In this document: positions 9,666 through 27,649 of the stretch, one piece after another
Position numbering within the stretch: the stretch's first letter is position 1
How the letters are laid out: each line of letters begins with the position of its first letter
IMG/VR virus record: IMGVR_UViG_3300031952_001269
Span: 1-33,051 of that record
Direction: 5' to 3' (one strand)
Origin: a virus
DNA: 33,051 nucleotides
Notes under the pieces: model-generated
Database searches by the model: none
Told to the model about the DNA's origin: nothing
Seen by the model: only the letters and a program-made list of their open reading frames with translations
Position numbers and translations under genes: made by a program

Positions 9666-11077
9666 GGTGCCTCAAAATATGCCATCGCGCCCAAGACGAT
9701 GAGGTCTCCGTCGATGGCAGCGGGTGTGATGTGATGGAGGTTTACTATCACATTTTGGTGTGAACCCGGCGTAAACGGAATCGCGGTGATGGTACTTGAC
9801 CAATAGTTGGTTGCGCCCATGCGAGTGAATGAGAACGTGCCAGACGTACCCGCCGCCGTCACACGAACACGCCAGTCGTTGAGTGTCGTTGCACCGCCAC
9901 CGGGCGCTTGCACCAGAAGCGTGAGCCTCAGCAGCGACGATGCCGTGCTAAAGTTGGGCATGATGCAGCGCATGAGAGCAACGCTTGCAGGGGTCACAAT
10001 GTCAGGACGAGTGACAGGGAACCTTGACCACTGAAGCATCCCTGTCGACGCCGCTAGCGTCTGTGGCGCAACGATGAGTTTGAACCCGCCAGCATAGGAA
10101 GACCCAAGCGCAACGCACGCAATGGGCAAATCAATCAACGGCTCGGCAGTAAACGACGCACGGTTGCCAAGCCGGTTCGTCGTCATCGTCATGGATGCAT
10201 TGCCAGCAACAGGGGCGCCCGTCATCCACTCCGTCAGGGCGTTGATGTTCCGGTTGGCCCTCGAGATGACATAGGCGTCAAGCGGCCCGCTTTCTTCGAC
10301 TTGCGTTGAATCGAACTCCACCCATGTGCCGGGAACAAACGTCGTTGGCAGCGGGTGATTATTGCCGACGCTCGACGACGGTACCGCGCCGGTCCGCGAG
10401 GCTTGGCGCCTTGCAGGGTACAGGCGCCAAGCGCCCAACTTGCTGGAGTCGTTGCCGCCAACGCCAGACGCAAGCACACGTGTGAACCGCGAGACGGTCA
10501 GGAACTGAAGGCCAGCGGACAACGTCAGATTCCACGAATACGTCGGTAGCGCCGTAGTGTTGAACTGTTGTTCATCGGTGATGGTGCGCGGTGGAGCGGA
10601 GCCGTCGTTGATTGGCCGACCGGGGGCAATACCGCCAGCGGTCCGACGCCCGTCAATCGGTCCCTGAAACGCCGCCCACGACGAGTCAAACAACGTAGCG
10701 GTGACACCGACTTCGCCTTCGTTGAAAGGCTTTGGGTCTGATATTTCCACCTCCAAGACCCACGATTGATCCTCGCCAGTCGCAACAAAAATGGGAACCG
10801 CGATGACGTCGACGTAGTCCGCCACAGCAGGCGACGGATCGGTGATGTCAATCCGTGCATCAATGTGCTGATTGGCGATTGCAAGACCGAGAGGACAACC
10901 GCGACCGCTACCAGTGTGGTTGATCGTAACGGCGTTGCCATTCTCGCCCGTCAATCGGTCCTTGACCTCGGCCATCTCGCCAAGTGCTTGGTACAATGCT
11001 CGCCAATAGATGCTGGCGTCGGCCACCACCTCGGACGGTGGAGTACCTGCGAAAGTTGAAGCAAGTATGCGAGCCAT
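9662..11077 (-). CDS. large tail-tip or fibre protein
   Basis: The 471-residue protein starts at ATG 11077 in a TGATG overlap, with AAGGTGG upstream; a GTG nine bases earlier is less well placed. The N-terminal 80 residues are helical (EVVADASIYWRALYQALGEM) and probably anchor it to the tail hub encoded just upstream. The rest is beta-rich with many Ser, Thr and Gly. It includes VTATLFDSSWAAFQGPIDG near residue 130 and a region from about 300 onward with repeated aromatic-ended strands. It follows the hub gene and is the longest protein after it, so a central fibre or baseplate component is likely. No receptor-binding module is recognised. Confidence 0.5.
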   Translation of the reverse strand: MARILASTFAGTPPSEVVADASIYWRALYQALGEMAEVKDRLTGENGNAVTINHTGSGRGCPLGLAIANQHIDARIDITDPSPAVADYVDVIAVPIFVATGEDQSWVLEVEISDPKPFNEGEVGVTATLFDSSWAAFQGPIDGRRTAGGIAPGRPINDGSAPPRTITDEQQFNTTALPTYSWNLTLSAGLQFLTVSRFTRVLASGVGGNDSSKLGAWRLYPARRQASRTGAVPSSSVGNNHPLPTTFVPGTWVEFDSTQVEESGPLDAYVISRANRNINALTEWMTGAPVAGNASMTMTTNRLGNRASFTAEPLIDLPIACVALGSSYAGGFKLIVAPQTLAASTGMLQWSRFPVTRPDIVTPASVALMRCIMPNFSTASSLLRLTLLVQAPGGGATTLNDWRVRVTAAGTSGTFSFTRMGATNYWSSTITAIPFTPGSHQNVIVNLHHITPAAIDGDLIVLGAMAYFEAP

Positions 11078-13293
11078 CAGCGCCACCTTGGTTCTGTGTC
11101 AATGACGCCAGCGGTACCAGCCACGATGCCCTCATCGTTGGCGAGCGATGCCATCTCGATCACGTTGACTGTTGAGACAGGCGCCGTTGGCGTGGAGCCT
11201 GTACTAGTCGGTGCAGCGACGATGTAGTCAACGCCAGCTTGCAGCGCGAACGCCGTAGCGGAGTCGATGGTTACCGTCGTTGCACTGACAGCCGTTACGG
11301 TTCTGACGTTGTAGGTTGCGCCCGATATGTCGAAGACACGCACGGACATGCCCACGCTAAAATACTCGCCAGGCGAGGCGTATCCGTTGACCTCGGGGCC
11401 AGTCGTCGCCAGCGTCAAGACCGTGCCGACAAACGAACCAATGACAGCAGCAGGGCAGACAAACAGTTGCTTGTCGAGCACCTGAAGGCCCAGCGTCATC
11501 CGTCCAGCGTCGTAGTCTGGACGTCGTGAGACCACGCGACAGTTGCTCCCAGCCAGCGTGCCGCCTCGCATGTCTGGCAGATAGGCGTAGTCGTTGATCA
11601 ACGTGCCAAGCGTGACGATGTCGCCAAGGTTGACCGACAACAACGACAGCGAAACATCAACCGACAAGCGACGGATGGCGTTGCCGCCGCCAGCGCCGCG
11701 CAAAAGTTTGGTGAGGTTAGACAACCGGAGCCCGATGGGCATGTCCGCTGGATGCTCAAAGGGGTCGGCATGAATGCGCCGCGCTTCAAGGCAGCCGATC
11801 GACTTGAACTCAAGGTTCAGCCGGTTGCTCATTCTCGGATAACGCTTGGCCATGATTCCATCAACGAGATTCATCTCGGCTGTGTAGTCGCCAGAGATGG
11901 GGGAGTATCCCAGCTTGATAGTGGCGTAGGGGTAGACCGTGCCTTCGTCGGCCATCACCACGATCCGCGAGTCAGGCAGCAAGCTGTTGCCGTCAATCAA
12001 CGTCGACGACGTGCGTGACTTGCTTAGGTTGATCAGGCGCAGCACACCATCTGACGTCGTCACGACGGCGCAATTTGCCAAGATACAGAACTCCCTCAAG
12101 TAGTCGGACAGCTTGCTTTCCTTGTCGACAATCAGCGTCGACAGCGGAGACACAACCTGATCAAACGAACTCAAGTCCACATCGGTAACGTCGATCCCAG
12201 CGCCGATGCTCCATCCCGATTCCAACCGACCATCAGGCGTCGTTGATGGCAAACGACCCGGCAATTTGTCGTTGACGGTCGCGCCCTGTCCTTCGCGTGA
12301 CAACATGAGATACTTGAGCATCGTCGCGCCGCCCTCTTCAGAGACGAACGCAATCTGTCTTGCCGACGTGACGATGCGAAAGGAGAACCGTTGAGACCCA
12401 AAGAGCGTGTCGGCGTAGACCTTCAGCGTGCCAGTGATGGCGTCGTGTGATTCCACCTCATAGATGCCGACGCTACCGCCGTTGGACTCAAGCGCAACGT
12501 AAGCGGGGAACGCAACGGCGTTACGGATTGCGGTCTTGTTCTCACATTCAAAAGCATCGACACGACGATTGGAGACAATCGCCGACGACAGCCACTTCGC
12601 CGGGGTTGTTTGCAGTCCGAATCCAACCGGGCGTTCAAAGAACTCTTGAGCGATGCCCGCCAAACGGAGCGACCACTTGCGGTCTCCGTTGTGCATTGGC
12701 GATTCGTCAACGACGAACACGCCTAGCAATTGCTGCGACGTAGGTGTGTAGCCGTATAGGAAAACGCGTCGACCTTGCCACGACGGAGGGGAGACGTAGA
12801 CGGAGTCCCCATCTGTCAAATCGCCAGTGATAGCAGATGCCTTGGAATCGAACGCGCCACGGACACACGTTCCGAGCGTTGTGCCCACCACCGTGCCGAT
12901 GGTTACCGTTTCGGCCCCGATGTAGATTACCTGTCCAGGCGACAACGACGCGGCGTTGTAAACTGACAGGTTGGCTCCTATCGCCGTCGTCGCGCTTTTG
13001 ATCCATGTTGCCCTTCGCTTCACGACAGAGAACAACGATTGAATCGACAGGCTGTTGTCGTCGACAAGTTCAACGTCGAGCGTCGCCGCTACTTCACGAC
13101 GTTGATCCATATCAAGCACTGCGTCGCCTTGTTTCAGCGACGTGATGCACGCAATCTGCGTCCGGCCTGTCACTGTACTGAACGACGACGAAACCACGCG
13201 CTCCATAAACGCGACAGGGATGCCCTCGACAATCAGACCCAACGTCAGGTCTTTGTGTGCGCCAGATTGCGCGAGGTCATCATACAGCGTCAT
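11077..13293 (-). CDS. tail hub / tail-tip protein (Tal-like)
   Basis: At 738 residues this is one of the longest proteins here. The first third contains strands seen in phage hub proteins, the segment RGAFDSKASAITGDLTDGDSVY (positions about 141-162) resembling a common tail-tip motif, and several beta modules. The middle (DQVVSPLSTLIVDKESKLSD, YLREFCILANCAVVTTSDG) resembles gp27-like hub domains, where a short helix precedes a strand pair. The C-terminus has IgG-like or OB-like strands with VIGSFVGTVLTLA. No lysozyme or peptidase domain is visible. It follows the distal tail-type gene and shares TGATG overlaps on both sides, which fits the canonical tape measure, Dit, Tal order. Confidence 0.6.
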   Translation of the reverse strand: MTLYDDLAQSGAHKDLTLGLIVEGIPVAFMERVVSSSFSTVTGRTQIACITSLKQGDAVLDMDQRREVAATLDVELVDDNSLSIQSLFSVVKRRATWIKSATTAIGANLSVYNAASLSPGQVIYIGAETVTIGTVVGTTLGTCVRGAFDSKASAITGDLTDGDSVYVSPPSWQGRRVFLYGYTPTSQQLLGVFVVDESPMHNGDRKWSLRLAGIAQEFFERPVGFGLQTTPAKWLSSAIVSNRRVDAFECENKTAIRNAVAFPAYVALESNGGSVGIYEVESHDAITGTLKVYADTLFGSQRFSFRIVTSARQIAFVSEEGGATMLKYLMLSREGQGATVNDKLPGRLPSTTPDGRLESGWSIGAGIDVTDVDLSSFDQVVSPLSTLIVDKESKLSDYLREFCILANCAVVTTSDGVLRLINLSKSRTSSTLIDGNSLLPDSRIVVMADEGTVYPYATIKLGYSPISGDYTAEMNLVDGIMAKRYPRMSNRLNLEFKSIGCLEARRIHADPFEHPADMPIGLRLSNLTKLLRGAGGGNAIRRLSVDVSLSLLSVNLGDIVTLGTLINDYAYLPDMRGGTLAGSNCRVVSRRPDYDAGRMTLGLQVLDKQLFVCPAAVIGSFVGTVLTLATTGPEVNGYASPGEYFSVGMSVRVFDISGATYNVRTVTAVSATTVTIDSATAFALQAGVDYIVAAPTSTGSTPTAPVSTVNVIEMASLANDEGIVAGTAGVIDTEPRWR

Positions 13294-22007: not shown

Positions 22008-23339
22008 CTAGGCCACGCGGCCCCAGTCGTCTGTGACGGCGTCGGATTGCGACCTGACGACGTTCGCTTTTCTGTGGACAGGGAATAGCCGATGTGCCGC
22101 ATAGCCCAGGGCGTCGAGAATGTGCGACATGTCCGAGGCGCCGACTTTCTTTTCAGGCTCGCCATTGCGGTCGAGGGCCTGTGTCTCAAGTGCGCGGCAT
22201 AGATGCGGGCAGGCGTCGGCGTCGATGGTCAGACGTCGATCCCTCAGCAGTACGTTGACCGTGTTGACCCGCTCCATAATGGGCGGATTCGCCTTGGGAT
22301 GATCGGGACGGAAGCCAGCCTGCAACAGCAGATGGATGTCGGAAAGTGTCGACGTCGTGTGCAACGACGCACCGCTTGCGTCAGGGTGCGCCTTGATGCG
22401 CATCGCGAAGACGTCTTCACGCGTGTAGCGCCGTCCCTTAGTGCGCTCAAGATGCGCCATGATCCAACGAGCGGTGCGCTCGGCATGTTCATCCGTCGTC
22501 GTGCCGCCTTGACGGATGACCTCGCCAACGACGTGGAGCACGCGCCTGTCGTCGTCGACCTCAGCAACGATCCATTGCGCATCGCGCACGTTGAAATCGC
22601 ACCCAATGACGAGACGCCCCCGGCCAGGCGTGACGACAGGTGGCGCGCCACAATGAATGCGCCTATCGAAACGCGAATAGACGCGGCCACCTCTCGCGGT
22701 CCTGACGCCGTCCAACTTCTCTTTGATGGCTTCATCAGTGCCTAGACGCGACCGCGATTCGTCGACGTAGGACGCAGGAAGAAACGGATTGTCAGCCGTG
22801 CGGATAACGTAGGCCCGTGTCGTCGCCGATGGCTTCGCCAACACCAACTCATAGGCAGGCCCGTAGCCCTCGGGAGTGCCGGTCAGCAGAGTCTCAAGGG
22901 CAGTGCCGGAGCGGACACGCTGCATAGCAGGCACAAGCGCCTCGGGGTCGCAGAGCTCCCATTCGTCAGCCCACAGACCAATCGCGTTGATGCCTTCTAC
23001 AGCGCGGGGCTTGTCGAGGGAGCGACACCAAAATTCAAACCGCTTGGCGCCGCCGATCTCAAAGATGTGATCGCTCTTCCAGTGCCTGTACGGTAGCCGC
23101 CACTCGTCGAGGTAGCGCATGGTGCTGCGCTCCATCACGTCGCGCACCATCGGGTAGCTAGGCTCCGTGCCGAGGATCGGGCCATGTTGGCCGTGCCTCA
23201 GTCCGAGGTCGACCATCCACGCGACGCCTAGCGAGGTCTTGCCGGAGCCGTAGCCACCAGACACCACACGGATGCCAGGGCCACGGTCGGCTAGCACCAT
23301 GAGGTGCTTGTCGCCCATGACGACAGATGCCCGCTTCAC
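22008..23339 (-). CDS. terL: terminase large subunit
   Basis: The 443-residue protein has all key terminase motifs: Walker A SGGYGSGKTS (residues 27-36), Walker B AIGLWADEWE (119-128) with catalytic E126, and motif III LLTGTPEG (151-158). The nuclease domain has acidic residues in VIGCDFN (D248), HPDASG (D320) and ASDMSHILDALGY (D403, D409). The start is GTG 23339 in a GTGA overlap with the small subunit; ATG 23318 is possible but would bring the start close to Walker A. It translocates DNA into the prohead and cuts the concatemer. Sequence alone does not tell whether packaging is headful or cohesive-end. Confidence 0.92.
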   Translation of the reverse strand: MKRASVVMGDKHLMVLADRGPGIRVVSGGYGSGKTSLGVAWMVDLGLRHGQHGPILGTEPSYPMVRDVMERSTMRYLDEWRLPYRHWKSDHIFEIGGAKRFEFWCRSLDKPRAVEGINAIGLWADEWELCDPEALVPAMQRVRSGTALETLLTGTPEGYGPAYELVLAKPSATTRAYVIRTADNPFLPASYVDESRSRLGTDEAIKEKLDGVRTARGGRVYSRFDRRIHCGAPPVVTPGRGRLVIGCDFNVRDAQWIVAEVDDDRRVLHVVGEVIRQGGTTTDEHAERTARWIMAHLERTKGRRYTREDVFAMRIKAHPDASGASLHTTSTLSDIHLLLQAGFRPDHPKANPPIMERVNTVNVLLRDRRLTIDADACPHLCRALETQALDRNGEPEKKVGASDMSHILDALGYAAHRLFPVHRKANVVRSQSDAVTDDWGRVA

Positions 23340-23812
23340 TTGATGACAGGCGTGAAGTCGACGCCGTCGACGCTGTCAGCAGCCGCCGTGGTCATCCGGC
23401 CAGGGGGGCCGTAGCGGGCGGGGTCGAGGGCTGCGAGCATTGCGAGGATCGCGGACCGATCTCCATCCTCAGCAATAGCCGCTAGGCGTTCCTCGAGGTC
23501 TTCCACGGACGGACGAGACCACGACCCACCCATCGCGCCAGTCGACGTCGTGCCGCGTGCCTCAGGCTCCCACCGTGCATGTGGAGCCATCGTCAGTTCA
23601 ATGATCATTTTAGCGGCGGCATTGCGTTGATTGCCGTCGGCGTCGACAATCGTCATGCGCTCGGATTCGGTCAGGTCTCCGACGACGTCGGGGTTCCCTA
23701 CCGCCTTGCCATACTGCACGCGCAATATGTGATCCGAGGCGTCCCGCATCCACCGCTTGAGCGGGAGCCGGTCAGACGCCCGACCAGACCCAGGCCGAGG
23801 AGGAGAAACCAC
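23336..23812 (-). CDS. terS: terminase small subunit candidate
   Basis: From GTG 23812 the protein has 158 residues; a TTG at 23857 would add 15, including three tryptophans. It has a Pro/Arg-rich N-terminus (PPRPGSGRASDRLPLKRWM), a helical segment HILRVQYGKAVGNPDVV, then DGNQRNAAAKMIIELTMAPH and a helical acidic C-terminal part (VEDLEERLAAIAEDGDRSAI). Small terminase subunits have an N-terminal DNA-binding part, a central oligomerisation helix and a C-terminal TerL contact. The position directly before TerL with a GTGA overlap is the main evidence. An imperfect hairpin 55 bases upstream of the GTG could be its DNA target. Confidence 0.6.
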   Translation of the reverse strand: MVSPPRPGSGRASDRLPLKRWMRDASDHILRVQYGKAVGNPDVVGDLTESERMTIVDADGNQRNAAAKMIIELTMAPHARWEPEARGTTSTGAMGGSWSRPSVEDLEERLAAIAEDGDRSAILAMLAALDPARYGPPGRMTTAAADSVDGVDFTPVIK

Positions 23813-23866
23813 GCAAGCACCATACCAGTTGATGGCACGCTTTTGCAACCACCACAAAGACCGAAC

Positions 23867-24000: not shown

Positions 24001-24249
24001 CTAGCCCAGATCGACAGGCTCATCAAGCCGCATCGCATCGTCCACCAGCATCCGAAGCACAGCCGATGCAGGACAGCCCCTAGAAGCCAACCAGGCGGCT
24101 TGGGCTGGAGTCAACGAGACTTGGCAGGTGTGAGCACGGCCAGAGGGCGAGAGGCGCTTAGGGCGGGTTTGGCGAGGCTTGGGAGGGTCGGCCAAATTGG
24201 GGTTGACCCAGCGCTTGAATTCTTGATTTTCTTTTGGGGTCTTGATCAC
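24001..24249 (-). CDS. ribbon-helix-helix DNA-binding protein candidate
   Basis: The 82-residue protein starts at GTG 24249 with GGAG 6-7 bases upstream. A basic N-terminal arm (PPKPRQTRPKRLSPSGR) is followed by a strand TCQVSLTP, a helix QAAWLASRG and a second helix SAVLRMLVDDAMRL. This is the strand-helix-helix pattern of Arc/CopG/MetJ-type regulators, which bind operators as dimers through the strand. It sits between the terminase genes and a region full of operator-like palindromes, so it may repress or activate late transcription. The call is by pattern only. Confidence 0.55.
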   Translation of the reverse strand: MIKTPKENQEFKRWVNPNLADPPKPRQTRPKRLSPSGRAHTCQVSLTPAQAAWLASRGCPASAVLRMLVDDAMRLDEPVDLG

Positions 24250-24256
24250 GGTGTCT

Positions 24257-24288
24257 CCAAAAAGAAAGCCCGCCAGTGTGGCGGGCTT
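24257..24288 (-). terminator. Rho-independent terminator before the ribbon-helix-helix gene
   Basis: A perfect 9-base-pair stem (AAGCCCGCC at 24266-24274 with its complement at 24280-24288) has a 5-base loop and is followed on the minus strand by TTTCTTTTT. The tail of the terminator leads directly into the ribosome binding site of the next gene, so read-through is needed to express it unless another promoter exists. Confidence 0.8.
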
Positions 24289-24297: not shown

Positions 24298-24510
24298 TCA
24301 AACGGCTTTGGGCAAGCGAATACGCGCCATGGTTTCGCCAAAGCCGCCTGAGACGCTGTAGGGGGCTGCAACCTCGGACCACGCTTGCCACTTGTAGCCG
24401 TAGCGAGGGTCTTGGTATCGCGCCCGCTTGAACCATTGGCCGTCGGCGCGCTGTGCGTGTTCAATGCGGCCCGTGTAATCGCCCGTGTAGCTGGTCAGAA
24501 CTTTGGTCAT
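24298..24510 (-). CDS. 70-residue protein, unknown, under its own promoter
   Basis: The protein starts at ATG 24510 with GGGAG 7-8 bases upstream. It is rich in aromatic and basic residues (SYTGDYTGRIEHAQRADGQW, FKRARYQDPRYGYKWQAW) and has no known motif or membrane segment. It is expressed from a sigma70-like promoter at 24558-24586 and stopped by a strong terminator after its stop codon, so it is essentially a single-gene unit. This arrangement, with operator-like dyads over the promoter, suggests a tightly controlled early function such as host takeover. Function unknown. Confidence 0.6.
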   Translation of the reverse strand: MTKVLTSYTGDYTGRIEHAQRADGQWFKRARYQDPRYGYKWQAWSEVAAPYSVSGGFGETMARIRLPKAV

Positions 24511-24555
24511 TGTCTGTCTCCCGTTTGCGTCCCGCGTCGTTGCGTGCTCGTAGGC

Positions 24556-24574
24556 CCACTATGCAGCACAGTGG
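24556..24574. promoter_or_regulatory. operator-like dyad over the -10 region
   Basis: CCACTATG (24556-24563) faces CACAGTGG (24567-24574) with one mismatch across CAG. It overlaps the -10 hexamer and part of the spacer of the promoter at 24558-24586, so a bound protein would block polymerase. Confidence 0.5.
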
Positions 24575-24586
24575 AGACAGTGTCAA
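24558..24586 (-). promoter_or_regulatory. sigma70-like promoter for the gene at 24298-24510
   Basis: On the minus strand TTGACA (24586-24581, perfect -35) is followed after 17 bases by CATAGT (24563-24558, 4 of 6 -10 matches). It would give a leader of about 40 bases before the ATG at 24510. Confidence 0.7.
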
Positions 24587-24693: not shown

Positions 24694-24723
24694 AAAAAGA
24701 AAACGCCACCCATTGGGTGGCGT
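24694..24723 (-). terminator. strong Rho-independent terminator
   Basis: A perfect 9-base-pair stem (ACGCCACCC at 24703-24711 with its complement at 24715-24723) has a 3-base loop and is followed on the minus strand by TTTCTTTTT. It would end transcripts from the primase-helicase gene and from the candidate small RNA promoter. Confidence 0.85.
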
Positions 24724-24780
24724 CATCAACCTGATCCCGCAGTGGGGAGACGTCGGGACTAGGTACGGGGTCGAGCCCGT
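24694..24780 (-). ncRNA. candidate structured small RNA, about 87 bases
   Basis: A possible promoter (24787-24814) lies about 7 bases upstream of a short stretch that can fold into three hairpins. The first pairs ACGGG with CCCGT (24776-24780 with 24765-24769). The second pairs CCTAGTCCCG with CGGGATCAGG (24763-24754 with 24739-24730), 9 of 10 pairs. The third is the terminator. The 14-base loop of hairpin two contains GTCTCCCC. Seven of these bases (GTCTCCC) are complementary to the GGGAGAC ribosome binding site of the gene at 24298-24510, and six to GGAGAC before the gene at 24001-24249. It may instead be the 3' untranslated end of the primase-helicase transcript. Confidence 0.45.
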
Positions 24781-24786
24781 GGGGGG

Positions 24787-24814
24787 AGTCTACCGATTAG
24801 GCGATGAGAGTCAA
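24787..24814 (-). promoter_or_regulatory. possible promoter for the candidate small RNA
   Basis: On the minus strand TTGACT (24814-24809, 5 of 6) is followed after 16 bases by TAGACT (24792-24787, 4 of 6). Transcription would begin near 24780, at the first base of the first hairpin. Confidence 0.45.
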
Positions 24815-24877
24815 GGCCATTGGCGCGCCAACAGGTTGAAATATCGACTCTTTTGGATTTAGAAAAAGACTATCTAT

Positions 24878-24893
24878 CTGGTTATATAACCAG
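24878..24893. promoter_or_regulatory. perfect 16-base AT-centred palindrome
   Basis: CTGGTTATATAACCAG is a perfect palindrome in the AT-richest part of the window. It is a candidate binding site for a dimeric regulator or initiator protein. Confidence 0.5.
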
Positions 24894-24900
24894 AGAACTT

Positions 24901-24968
24901 CTTTCTTCATTCATAGGTGGTGCGACGCACGTACACCTATAAGGACCCTCGTTGAAGAATGAAGGAAG
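24901..24968. repeat. nested inverted repeat after the primase-helicase gene
   Basis: Outer arms CTTTCTTCATTC (24901-24912) and GAATGAAGGAAG (24957-24968) match at 11 of 12 positions. Inside, ATAGGTG faces CACCTAT (24913-24940) with further GTGCG/CGCAC pairing. It would form a long two-stage hairpin in RNA or a cruciform in DNA. Confidence 0.5.
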
Positions 24969-25023
24969 GGGAGGCAAACTGCCGCACTTCCTGTTTTCCA
25001 ACAAGGGACCTCACAACCCTAGC

Positions 25024-27273
25024 CTATTTCAACTTGATTGTCACGCCAGAACGGCCACCTGTTGCGACCTTAGCCACAATCAACCGATCTTCTTGCCTCA
25101 GTCGGTCTAGGACTCCATCCAACGCCATTGCGTCCAGACGTTGGCAAGCTCGCAGAAGTTGGGACCGTTGCACCCATCCGTCGGCATCGCCCAATCGCAT
25201 CATGGCGGATTCGACGTAGGATATCTGTCCTGCAACGTCGTTCCATTGCGGCGCCTTGTGGTCGCGCAATGACCGGGCGATGGTCCAACTTGACGCCTCA
25301 ACGATTCTAATCGCGCACTCAACCACCGCCTCCGTCACCACCGGCCAAGCAGGCCACTGACAGCGTAGGATGGCCAGAGACAGCGCAACGCGTGTTGCCT
25401 GTTCCGCACATCGGCCAAGCAGCGCCGCAGGCACGTCGCCCTGTTGTGGTTCGCGTCGGCGCTCGTCGCAGTGCTCTGCATAGTCCGCCAGCAAAGCAGC
25501 GCCGCCGCCATCCTCGACTTCGTCAGCCTGGTACATGCGCAGCAGAGCGCCGGTAGCTGCGTCGCCCTGTTCAGGGTACCGCTTGTGCCACGTCTCATGG
25601 GAGGCCCGACACGCTACCACGGCTTCCTTGACGGCCACCGGGATGGACCCACTACCGGGCGCCGCCCGCTGGCGCCTTGGGAGCTCTAGCAGCCCCTCGC
25701 ACCAGAGATGCCGACCCATGAAACCATCATCAACAGCCATCTGCCCAATGGCATCATGCAAAGCTGCTGGCGTGCTCGAGCCGAAGATTGACAACGCCGG
25801 GGCCGTGATCGTCCGGTCTTTGCCGCCTCGGGTGGCGGACGTGGCGGCAACGTAGGAGCCGGTCCCAATGGTTGCCATGGTCAGCAACAGCGCCCGCATG
25901 TCCCGTTGATGGCCCGATCTGGCGTCAAACAGCGCCTTGAGCCGGGGTCCGTATTCGTCAAGCACGAGAAGCAGGCCGGTGCCGTAGTTGGTGGCCTCTT
26001 CGATTCTCGTGATCGTGCTCACGGTTGAGGACAGATCATTGGCACCGATCGATCCTGGCCAGATTTCCCGCAAGACTTGGGACAAGGCACCTTGTGGCCG
26101 TCCCTTGCCGGTTGCTGTTGGCGCTACGGCACACACGATCTGCGCCGATGTGGCCCGGTCAAAGGTCCAGCGGCGGGCACCAAGAGCAGACCCAAGCGCC
26201 ACGAGCGCACCCAAGGTCAGCCCCGGTTGTGGATAATCGGCGCCGTCAAGCACCCATGCCGGGAATGACTCGCAAAGCCCGCCAAGCGCCCGCACATCGT
26301 CAAGCAACGACCATTGCGCATCGTCGTCCGGCTCCGGCAGCCTGACAAACTGGCGTGCTGGCGTGCTGTCAACGACAGCGTCGACGATCTCTCCCTCGAC
26401 TTCTTGCCCAGTGATCTGCATGCCATTTAGTGCGTCGTCGAATCGCGACACCAGCATGTGGCCAGTGCTGTTCCCTTTGGGGTCCGGCTTGGACGCCGCT
26501 TCCTTGGCTTTGTGCTGCAACTCCTTTTGAGACCACGGCGGCGAACATCGTTGAGACCATTCTGCCATGACGTCGATGATCTCTGACTCGCACAAGCCAA
26601 AGCCCGTGGCGCACGCCCTCGCGACTTTCATTGCAGCGGTATGGCCGCCACTGCCAGAAATGGCGCCAGGCATGCGAGCAACGTAGGCCCGCGCCCGTTC
26701 CAACCGCCGCGATGGATCGAACACGCTAGACGGCAGGATCTGCTGTGCTGGCGCTTTGGGTCGCTTGTAGGCCCGCATCGCCTCGAGCACCCATGTCGGG
26801 ATGGGAGCCGGTTCAACGTCGCAGAGCACATCATAGGTTCCAGCCGCTGTCGTGGAGCCGGGGCCAACAACGTAGCCACCAATCCCGCGAGTGTCGACGT
26901 CATCAAACCCTAGGCAGCCCTTCGCCTTTTGCGTGTTGCGCAAAACGTCGTCGTCGTCGCCTCCCTCTGGCATGGCGTAGTAGTAGTGAAAGCCTCCTCG
27001 TGGTGTTTGCACAATCAACGTCGGATCCATGCGCTCATGGATCGGGTGAGCCGGATCGGCGCTGTCGACGTCGACGACGAACAAGCCCGATGACCGACCA
27101 CAAGCAATGCCAACAGCACACGTCGGATAGGGCCTGAAGAGCGCCCGCACCTTGTCGGCATCGTTGCTGGCGACGACGTCCCAAGCGTCGACAATCGGGC
27201 GCTTCTGCTTGCCGATGGGGAAGACGGCCCAGCCGTTGTTGGCGAGGGAGAGGGCAAGATCGAGGCTAGTCAT
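25024..27273 (-). CDS. primase-polymerase / DUF3987-like helicase fusion
   Basis: From ATG 27273 (8-base overlap with the preceding gene) the protein has 749 residues; the frame extends 49 codons upstream without support. Residues 1-190 are a prim-pol domain: GWAVFPI start, catalytic DVD (D68, D70) in GLFVVDVDSADP, TPRGGFHYYYA (H96) and DTRGIGGYVVGPGS (D127). Residues about 230-300 are a small helical primase C-terminal part. From about 345, a DUF3987-type P-loop domain follows with a degenerate Walker A (APTATGKGR) and a Walker B (LLLVLDEYG), then a helical C-terminus. It would prime and unwind phage DNA. The missing Ser/Thr after Lys in Walker A is unusual. Confidence 0.75.
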   Translation of the reverse strand: MTSLDLALSLANNGWAVFPIGKQKRPIVDAWDVVASNDADKVRALFRPYPTCAVGIACGRSSGLFVVDVDSADPAHPIHERMDPTLIVQTPRGGFHYYYAMPEGGDDDDVLRNTQKAKGCLGFDDVDTRGIGGYVVGPGSTTAAGTYDVLCDVEPAPIPTWVLEAMRAYKRPKAPAQQILPSSVFDPSRRLERARAYVARMPGAISGSGGHTAAMKVARACATGFGLCESEIIDVMAEWSQRCSPPWSQKELQHKAKEAASKPDPKGNSTGHMLVSRFDDALNGMQITGQEVEGEIVDAVVDSTPARQFVRLPEPDDDAQWSLLDDVRALGGLCESFPAWVLDGADYPQPGLTLGALVALGSALGARRWTFDRATSAQIVCAVAPTATGKGRPQGALSQVLREIWPGSIGANDLSSTVSTITRIEEATNYGTGLLLVLDEYGPRLKALFDARSGHQRDMRALLLTMATIGTGSYVAATSATRGGKDRTITAPALSIFGSSTPAALHDAIGQMAVDDGFMGRHLWCEGLLELPRRQRAAPGSGSIPVAVKEAVVACRASHETWHKRYPEQGDAATGALLRMYQADEVEDGGGAALLADYAEHCDERRREPQQGDVPAALLGRCAEQATRVALSLAILRCQWPAWPVVTEAVVECAIRIVEASSWTIARSLRDHKAPQWNDVAGQISYVESAMMRLGDADGWVQRSQLLRACQRLDAMALDGVLDRLRQEDRLIVAKVATGGRSGVTIKLK

Positions 27274-27649
27274 TGTTTGACCCGATAACGGAAACGACAT
27301 CAACAAAGCGGCGAGCACCAGCGCCGAGCGCCTTGCCGACCACGTCTTTTTTGTCGTTGACGACGACAAACCATTGATCTCCGTTGACAGAGTATCCATC
27401 GAAAAACTGTTGCTGGCCAAGGTACGACCAGATGTTCAGGCACCCGGACGACTCTCCAATGGTTGTGACGTCATGTTCAGCAAAGCAGTGTGTTGAGATC
27501 AGATGGTTGATGACGTCGACGATTCGTAAATCGTGGTCTTCGTCCCACTCAATCACAAAGCGCCAGATGTATTCATTGCAGACTGTCTCGCAGACAGAAA
27601 AGTTTGGCGTCTCGCCAACGACGACGAAAAACGATGAAAGCTGTTTCAT
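27266..27649 (-). CDS. unknown 127-residue protein between two replication genes
   Basis: The protein starts at ATG 27649 with AGAGG 6-7 bases upstream and overlaps the primase-polymerase start by 8 bases. It is acidic and rich in Val, Asp and aromatic residues (EYIWRFVIEWDEDHDLRIVD, FFDGYSVNGDQWFVVVNDKK), with a C-terminal basic patch (KALGAGARRFVD). No motif is recognised. Its place between a helicase and a primase suggests a replication accessory such as a loader or clamp-like factor, but that is inference from position. Confidence 0.5.
   Translation of the reverse strand: MKQLSSFFVVVGETPNFSVCETVCNEYIWRFVIEWDEDHDLRIVDVINHLISTHCFAEHDVTTIGESSGCLNIWSYLGQQQFFDGYSVNGDQWFVVVNDKKDVVGKALGAGARRFVDVVSVIGSNND

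Follow-up and report, generated by a model that had tools for sequence, protein, structure and literature searches.

The window, i.e. the whole stretch of 33,051 bases analyzed, was taken from IMG/VR virus record IMGVR_UViG_3300031952_001269. Its minus strand carries, in order, a primase/polymerase gene, a candidate small RNA (sRNA) gene, two small genes (24298-24510 and 24001-24249), a possible TerS gene and TerL (Table 1). Isolate phages yielded no DNA match to the window, and TerL was only ~31% identical to its counterparts in isolate phages. Bacterial genomes were searched for the sRNA pattern and, separately, for the primase, with no match to either, and a partial scan of the proteins recognised no integrase.

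Table 1. Features of the sRNA locus and neighboring genes (window coordinates).
Feature	Position	Strand	Basis or remark
Primase/polymerase	25024-27420	-	Prim-Pol and PHROG DNA primase matches
sRNA promoter TTGACT-16-TAGACT, sigma-70 type	24787..24814	-	Promoter scan, 9/12 matches
Small RNA gene, ~80-90 nt, three hairpins (predicted)	24695..24788	-	Fold, homologues, covariance model
Hairpin 1, ACGGG-CUCGAC-CCCGU	24765..24780	-	Fold; compensatory change
Hairpin 2, display hairpin	24729..24764	-	Fold; two pairs changed on both sides
Apical loop of hairpin 2, ACGUCUCCCCACUG	24740..24753	-	Contains GUCUCCC (24751-24745), complementary to RBS
Intrinsic terminator, 10 pairs, loop of 3, T-rich tail	24694..24724	-	Terminator scan; pairs vary on both sides
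Cassette promoter TTGACA-17-CATAGT, separate from that of the sRNA	24558..24586	-	Scan; same kind heads cassettes of relatives
RBS GGGAGAC, target site	24516..24522	-	Precedes ATG 24510
Cassette gene, 70 aa, likely target	24298..24510	-	No PHROG or Pfam match
RBS GGAGAC, possible second target site	24253..24258	-	Precedes GTG 24249; 6-base match
82-aa gene, possible second target	24001..24249	-	Sub-threshold DUF2239 match only
Possible TerS	23336-23857	-	Small gene; position only, no match
TerL	22008-23339	-	Protein family match

The first-pass annotation of this DNA had proposed a promoter, three stable hairpins of which the last is a perfect terminator, and a 14-base loop in hairpin 2 containing GTCTCCC, and each of these was recovered. 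The promoter scan returned TTGACT-16-TAGACT at 24814..24787 (minus strand), the loop was located at 24753-24740, and 24790-24694 (minus strand) folded at -41.8 kcal/mol with z = -4.67, none of 200 shuffles being equally stable. The terminator stem (24724-24702) is a perfect 10 bp helix followed by T-rich sequence, and the minimum free energy structure of hairpin 2 places two weak extra pairs inside the apical loop. An apparent promoter of its own and an intrinsic terminator flank this predicted non-coding structured RNA, as expected of a trans-acting antisense sRNA gene. Rfam returned no match to the sRNA at gathering score, to the c4 family or any other, and none of relevance below it. ARAGORN called neither a tRNA nor a tmRNA, and the T-arm-like hairpin 1 (GGGCUCGACCCC) was rejected as a piece of a tRNA. 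Roughly at the position of the sRNA, the related phage L076 has a tRNA-like stretch (11000-11160; GGATGGTTCGACTCCAT ... ACGCCCACG) that is followed by a terminator and has the primase on one side and a small gene with its own promoter on the other; no tRNA was called by ARAGORN there either.

Relatives were collected via TerL, the primase and a DNA pattern, and the sRNA was present in at least 12 distinct IMG/VR contigs. Among 12 or more relatives, TTGAC and TA[G/C][A/C]CT (TACCAT in one) were kept at a fixed distance of 16 bases, with spacer letters drifting despite the constant spacing. Homology began at the -35 box, and the DNA upstream was unrelated in most relatives. A covariance model (R1) scored the window at 114 bits (E = 2e-27), window-type relatives at 60-114 bits and L031 at 38 bits. 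The first-pass annotation had called for a covariation test, and the three hairpins were found to be kept and co-varying in related phages: five stem pairs, comprising eight cells, were changed on both sides, for a covariation score of 0.184 vs 0.119 when shuffled (0/500) and 0.02-0.11 when slid (maximum 0.109). Hairpin 1 showed a compensatory change from G-C to U-A in L022 and L051, and changes on both sides occurred at two pairs of hairpin 2 and at pairs of the terminator. The loop (GUCUCCCC) was almost invariant among window-type RNAs; in L006 one position is U, which still allows a G-U pair. The promoter and terminator stem persist in L031, L112 and L115, as does hairpin 1 in L112 and L115, and all three have a remodelled hairpin 2 whose loop is rich in C and U. 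Judged from these homologues, 24788-24695 (minus strand) is a conserved predicted RNA gene unit of promoter, fold and terminator.

Downstream, GGGAGAC had been named as the ribosome binding site (RBS) of 24298-24510, and this was confirmed. Relatives hold one to four small genes, or cassettes, each with its own TTGACA-17-CATAGT-like promoter. A promoter-based scan requiring only a general Shine-Dalgarno (SD) sequence detected 18 promoter-headed cassette genes among ten phages that have the window-type RNA, and the RBS was GGGAGAC in every one (18/18). This first target is well supported. The RBS of an AAA-ATPase gene returned by the same scan was AGAGGTGA, unlike those of the cassettes, and the loop matched well-supported structural genes (window, rough gene call) by only 3-5 bases. 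The other proposed target, 24001-24249, fared less well: its GGAGAC was kept in only 5/8 relatives (kept in L027, L057, L022 and L004; absent in L030, L072 and L020). Its protein has a DUF2239 match with E 1.4e-4, below gathering score, and contains a segment, CQVSLTPAQAAWLASRGCPASAVLRMLVDDAM, common to many relatives. The cassette proteins are 50-130 aa in length, diverse and not evidently hydrophobic single-helix peptides, and those tested had no PHROG or Pfam matches. Cassettes arranged in tandem, with promoters and RBSs that are almost the same, encode different proteins of this size in L062 (7571-8742), in other relatives and in the window (24586-24298), forming an apparent plug-in site for accessory genes adjoining the terminase genes.

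Taken by itself, the window offers little statistical weight. In 20000 trials, composition-shuffled loops matched either RBS over at least 7 bases in 2.0% and both RBSs over 7+6 bases in 0.5%; shuffled loops seldom match. The window contains 6 copies of GGGAGAC vs 4.9 expected. The loop/RBS match in this single genome is weak (p about 0.02), whereas across the related phages it is clearly above chance.

Across phages, loop and RBS changed together. The loop and RBS were GUCUCUCC and GGAGAGAC in L056, CGUCUCUC and GAGAGACG in L013, UCUCUCCCU and AGGGAGAGA in L017, CUCUCUCC and GGAGAGAG in L018, GUCUCUUC and GAAGAGAC in L010, CUCUCUCCC and GGGAGAGAG in L014, UGUCUCCC and GGGAGACA in L033, UGCUCCC and GGGAGCA in L080, and CUUCUCCCUCGU and ACGAGGGAGAAG in L077. 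The RNA scaffolds of L010/L017/L018, L014/L064, L033 and L077-L081 show no obvious resemblance to that of the window. By permutations that treat related phages as exchangeable and whose p values are therefore optimistic, a phage's own loop and RBS matched over 7.18 bases vs 6.18 for swapped pairs (p = 5e-5) in 17 phages in which homology, position or promoter-terminator rules, and not the RBS, had served to find the RNA; the corresponding p was 0.001 for group I alone (14 phages) and 0.004 with one phage per class (7 phages; 7.9 own vs 6.3 swapped). When RNAs found with RBS-inspired motifs (L033, L014, L064, L077-L079), which are not independent evidence, were included, the values were 8.08 vs 6.41 bases (p = 2e-5), and shuffled loops never rose above a mean of 6.0.

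Comparisons within a gene family are better evidence than permutation p values. The PNSCWG cassette protein is preceded by GGGAGACA in L047, GGGAGAGACA in L112 and GAAGAGAC in L010, and the match to the phage's own loop was 8, 10 and 8 bases, respectively, vs 5-7 when swapped among the three. Similarly, own matches in the FAS family (L033, L013, L056) were 8, 8 and 8 bases, with most swapped values at 5-7 and one at 8. The L018 loop matched another gene by 8 bases vs 6 for its PNSCWG-family cassette, the motif of L013 lies partly inside a stem, and the pairing cores are short (7-10 bases). The loop offers a predicted exposed seed that is complementary to translation start regions and kept so by co-variation, as expected of a trans-acting antisense sRNA.

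The relationship also permitted the prediction of an unseen loop. The RBS in L112-L115 was CGGGAGAGAC, and the RBS form GGGAGAGAC implied the loop GUCUCUCCC; the whole L112-L115 records were searched for GUCUCUCCC after this prediction from the RBS. Besides the RBS copies, GUCUCUCCC occurred at one place each in the L112 and L115 records, and both places fell in the second hairpin of an RNA homologous to that of the window, i.e. in 2/2 contigs reaching the locus (the L113 and L114 contigs hold RBS copies only, the sRNA locus being beyond them). In the L112 and L115 homologues the GUCUCUCCC loop lies behind TTGACA-16-TACACT and the hairpin GGGGCUCGACCCC; the same terminator follows in L112, and the contig of L115 stops partway through the terminator. 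The chance of one given 9-mer occurring in a ~15-base loop is about 6e-5. Between GGGAGAC/GUCUCCC and GGGAGAGAC/GUCUCUCCC, the RBS has gained GA and the loop a compensating UC. This provides a sequence rule, by which the sRNA loop is predicted from the cassette RBS, and it has worked once blindly. L116 was tried as a further case and set aside; it has the same cassette protein with an unrelated leader, RBS AAGGGAGCC, and no recognisable promoter or sRNA.

These comparisons make it highly probable that the locus encodes a trans-acting antisense sRNA, equipped with its own promoter and terminator, which prevents the cassette genes from being translated. The sRNA would be transcribed from its sigma-70-type promoter and ended at its own terminator, and hairpin 2 would display the pyrimidine-rich loop GUCUCCC. 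The loop would pair in trans with the extended SD sequence GGGAGAC of promoter-headed accessory cassettes, blocking ribosome binding and repressing their translation, such that several cassettes of one phage may share a single post-transcriptional off-switch. Such a switch might time cassette expression in lytic growth or keep the cassettes quiet in a carrier state. Action in trans is favored by the placement of the matching cassettes in other phages, which can be opposite-strand, upstream or at a distance of kilobases: they are on the strand opposite to the RNA in L010, L017, L018 and L047, the L047 cassette is 8 kb from the RNA in opposite orientation, and in L033 the RNA is situated beyond its cassettes. 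The first-pass annotation had suggested an RNA controlling the two genes downstream of it; such control is supported by the co-variation, more for the first gene than for the second, but the downstream position proved irrelevant, since cassettes are found elsewhere in other phages.

A general anti-SD sRNA directed at host mRNAs, in the style of the alphaproteobacterial cuckoo/alpha-r14 RNAs, would match the cassettes simply because SD sites are purine-rich. The loops are indeed pyrimidine-rich, swapped pairs still average 6.2 matching bases, and alpha-r14 RNAs show CCUCCUCCC motifs in the loops of divergent stems (PMC10746234). However, the loops track the cassette RBS base by base, including the matched 2-base insertion of GGGAGAGAC/GUCUCUCCC and the GGGAGCA/UGCUCCC of L080, which a general binder need not do, and the phage's ordinary genes are hardly matched by the loop; this explanation is considered unlikely. 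Less credible again is a terminated leader like lambda 6S RNA, in which the promoter serves the downstream operon, an antiterminator passes the terminator and the short RNA is a by-product. The RNA does lie between the replication genes and the small genes and terminase, on the same strand, with about 60 bases from promoter to terminator, but each of the downstream cassettes is served by a promoter of its own, the RNA of L010, L017, L018 and L033 does not occupy a leader position relative to the genes it matches, and loop/RBS co-variation would be left unexplained. A simple next-operon leader was dropped, as the matching genes are on the opposite strand in several phages.

A type I toxin-antitoxin-like module, with toxic cassette proteins and the RNA as antitoxin, ranks marginally below the terminated leader and is equally hard to favor. 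A strong promoter, a small ORF and an RBS-directed RNA are the type I layout, but the cassette proteins are of the size and diversity given above and not evidently hydrophobic single-helix peptides, those tested lack family matches, and several targets per phage share one RNA. Scarcely any weight is given to chance, i.e. an ordinary conserved terminator region whose loop holds an anti-SD-like string by accident, which accords with the single-genome p of about 0.02 but not with the conserved promoter, co-varying stems, loop/RBS co-variation and successful prediction.

To our knowledge, targets are known for only a few of the sRNAs that phages encode, and the documented ones act mostly on a single locus or on host genes. 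The c4 RNA of P1 and P7 and its target share one transcript, from which c4 is processed. Loops of c4 are complementary to the RBS region of ant mRNA and block its translation, which underlies the heteroimmunity of P1 and P7 (PMC12197685). The present sRNA is likewise a phage RNA with a loop complementary to a phage RBS region, where it would similarly block translation; it differs in having its own promoter and terminator, and several scattered putative targets with separate promoters. The sar RNA of P22 is encoded at its target locus and is perfectly complementary to the target over its length. As an antisense RNA of a phage, it prevents the translation of ant from being initiated (PMC12197685). 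A comparable block at the translation start of a phage gene is proposed here, but only a loop of 7-10 bases matches, and the genes are elsewhere.

The cuckoo/alpha-r14 (NfeR1) RNAs of alphaproteobacteria have hairpins with divergent stems and an anti-SD loop motif, and act in trans on many mRNAs (PMC10746234). The display of an anti-SD motif in a hairpin loop is shared, whereas theirs is the ultraconserved CCUCCUCCC with bacterial targets, and here the loop varies with the RBS of the phage's cassettes; instead of CCUCCUCCC in three loops, the window RNA has the single display loop ACGUCUCCCCACUG. PreS of lambda and VpdS of VP882 are phage-encoded trans-acting sRNAs of 50-90 nt (PMC12197685). 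PreS is Hfq-dependent and has a host gene as its target, whereas the evident targets here are the phage's own genes. With its own promoter, several targets, no sequence match and a variable motif, the present sRNA belongs to none of the c4, sar and cuckoo/alpha-r14 groups. A search of the open-access literature returned no account of a loop in a phage sRNA co-evolving with a repeated RBS.

More tentatively, loop and cassette RBS may work as lock and key, in a code that diversifies among phage relatives, with all cassettes of a phage's own code silenced and those of relatives with another code not; this is viewed as possible, with the balance against it. Under such a code, silencing would be independent of the insertion site of a cassette or the protein it encodes, acquired cassettes would join the regulon via their 5' end alone, and RNA-based immunity groups could be set, as by c4 for P1 vs P7. 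Comparative genomics alone linked an sRNA family to a whole accessory gene set, and RNA-mRNA co-evolution is seen over many phages and several unrelated hairpin scaffolds. Furthermore, this provides a handle on many small phage proteins without a known family that are apparently regulated as a group.

In L076-L081, a promoter-hairpin-terminator RNA (TTGCAC ... TAGCCT, stem CACGTCG/CGACGTG) is divergent from the primase, lying at 7640-7730 in L077, at 1030-1120 in L078 and upstream of the primase in L076, L079, L080 and L081. Its loop matched the primase RBS by 12 bases in L077, 8 in L078 and 7 in L080, and by only 5 in L076, L079 and L081. In these phages, the targets may include the primase itself.

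A second structured element (24860-25023, minus strand; fold z = -5.5) is situated in the interval that separates the stop codon of the primase from the promoter of the sRNA. It had no Rfam match, and the relatives examined, with primases as little as 66% identical, carried it 3' of that gene. Its CTTCCTTC/GAAGGAAG helix is replaced by AATTAATT/AATTAATT in other phages, and the terminal hairpin, before TAGATAGTCTTTTTC, is changed on both sides (TCTGGTT..AACCAGA and TCGGAAT..ATTCCGA). This stretch is possibly a separate new phage RNA element.
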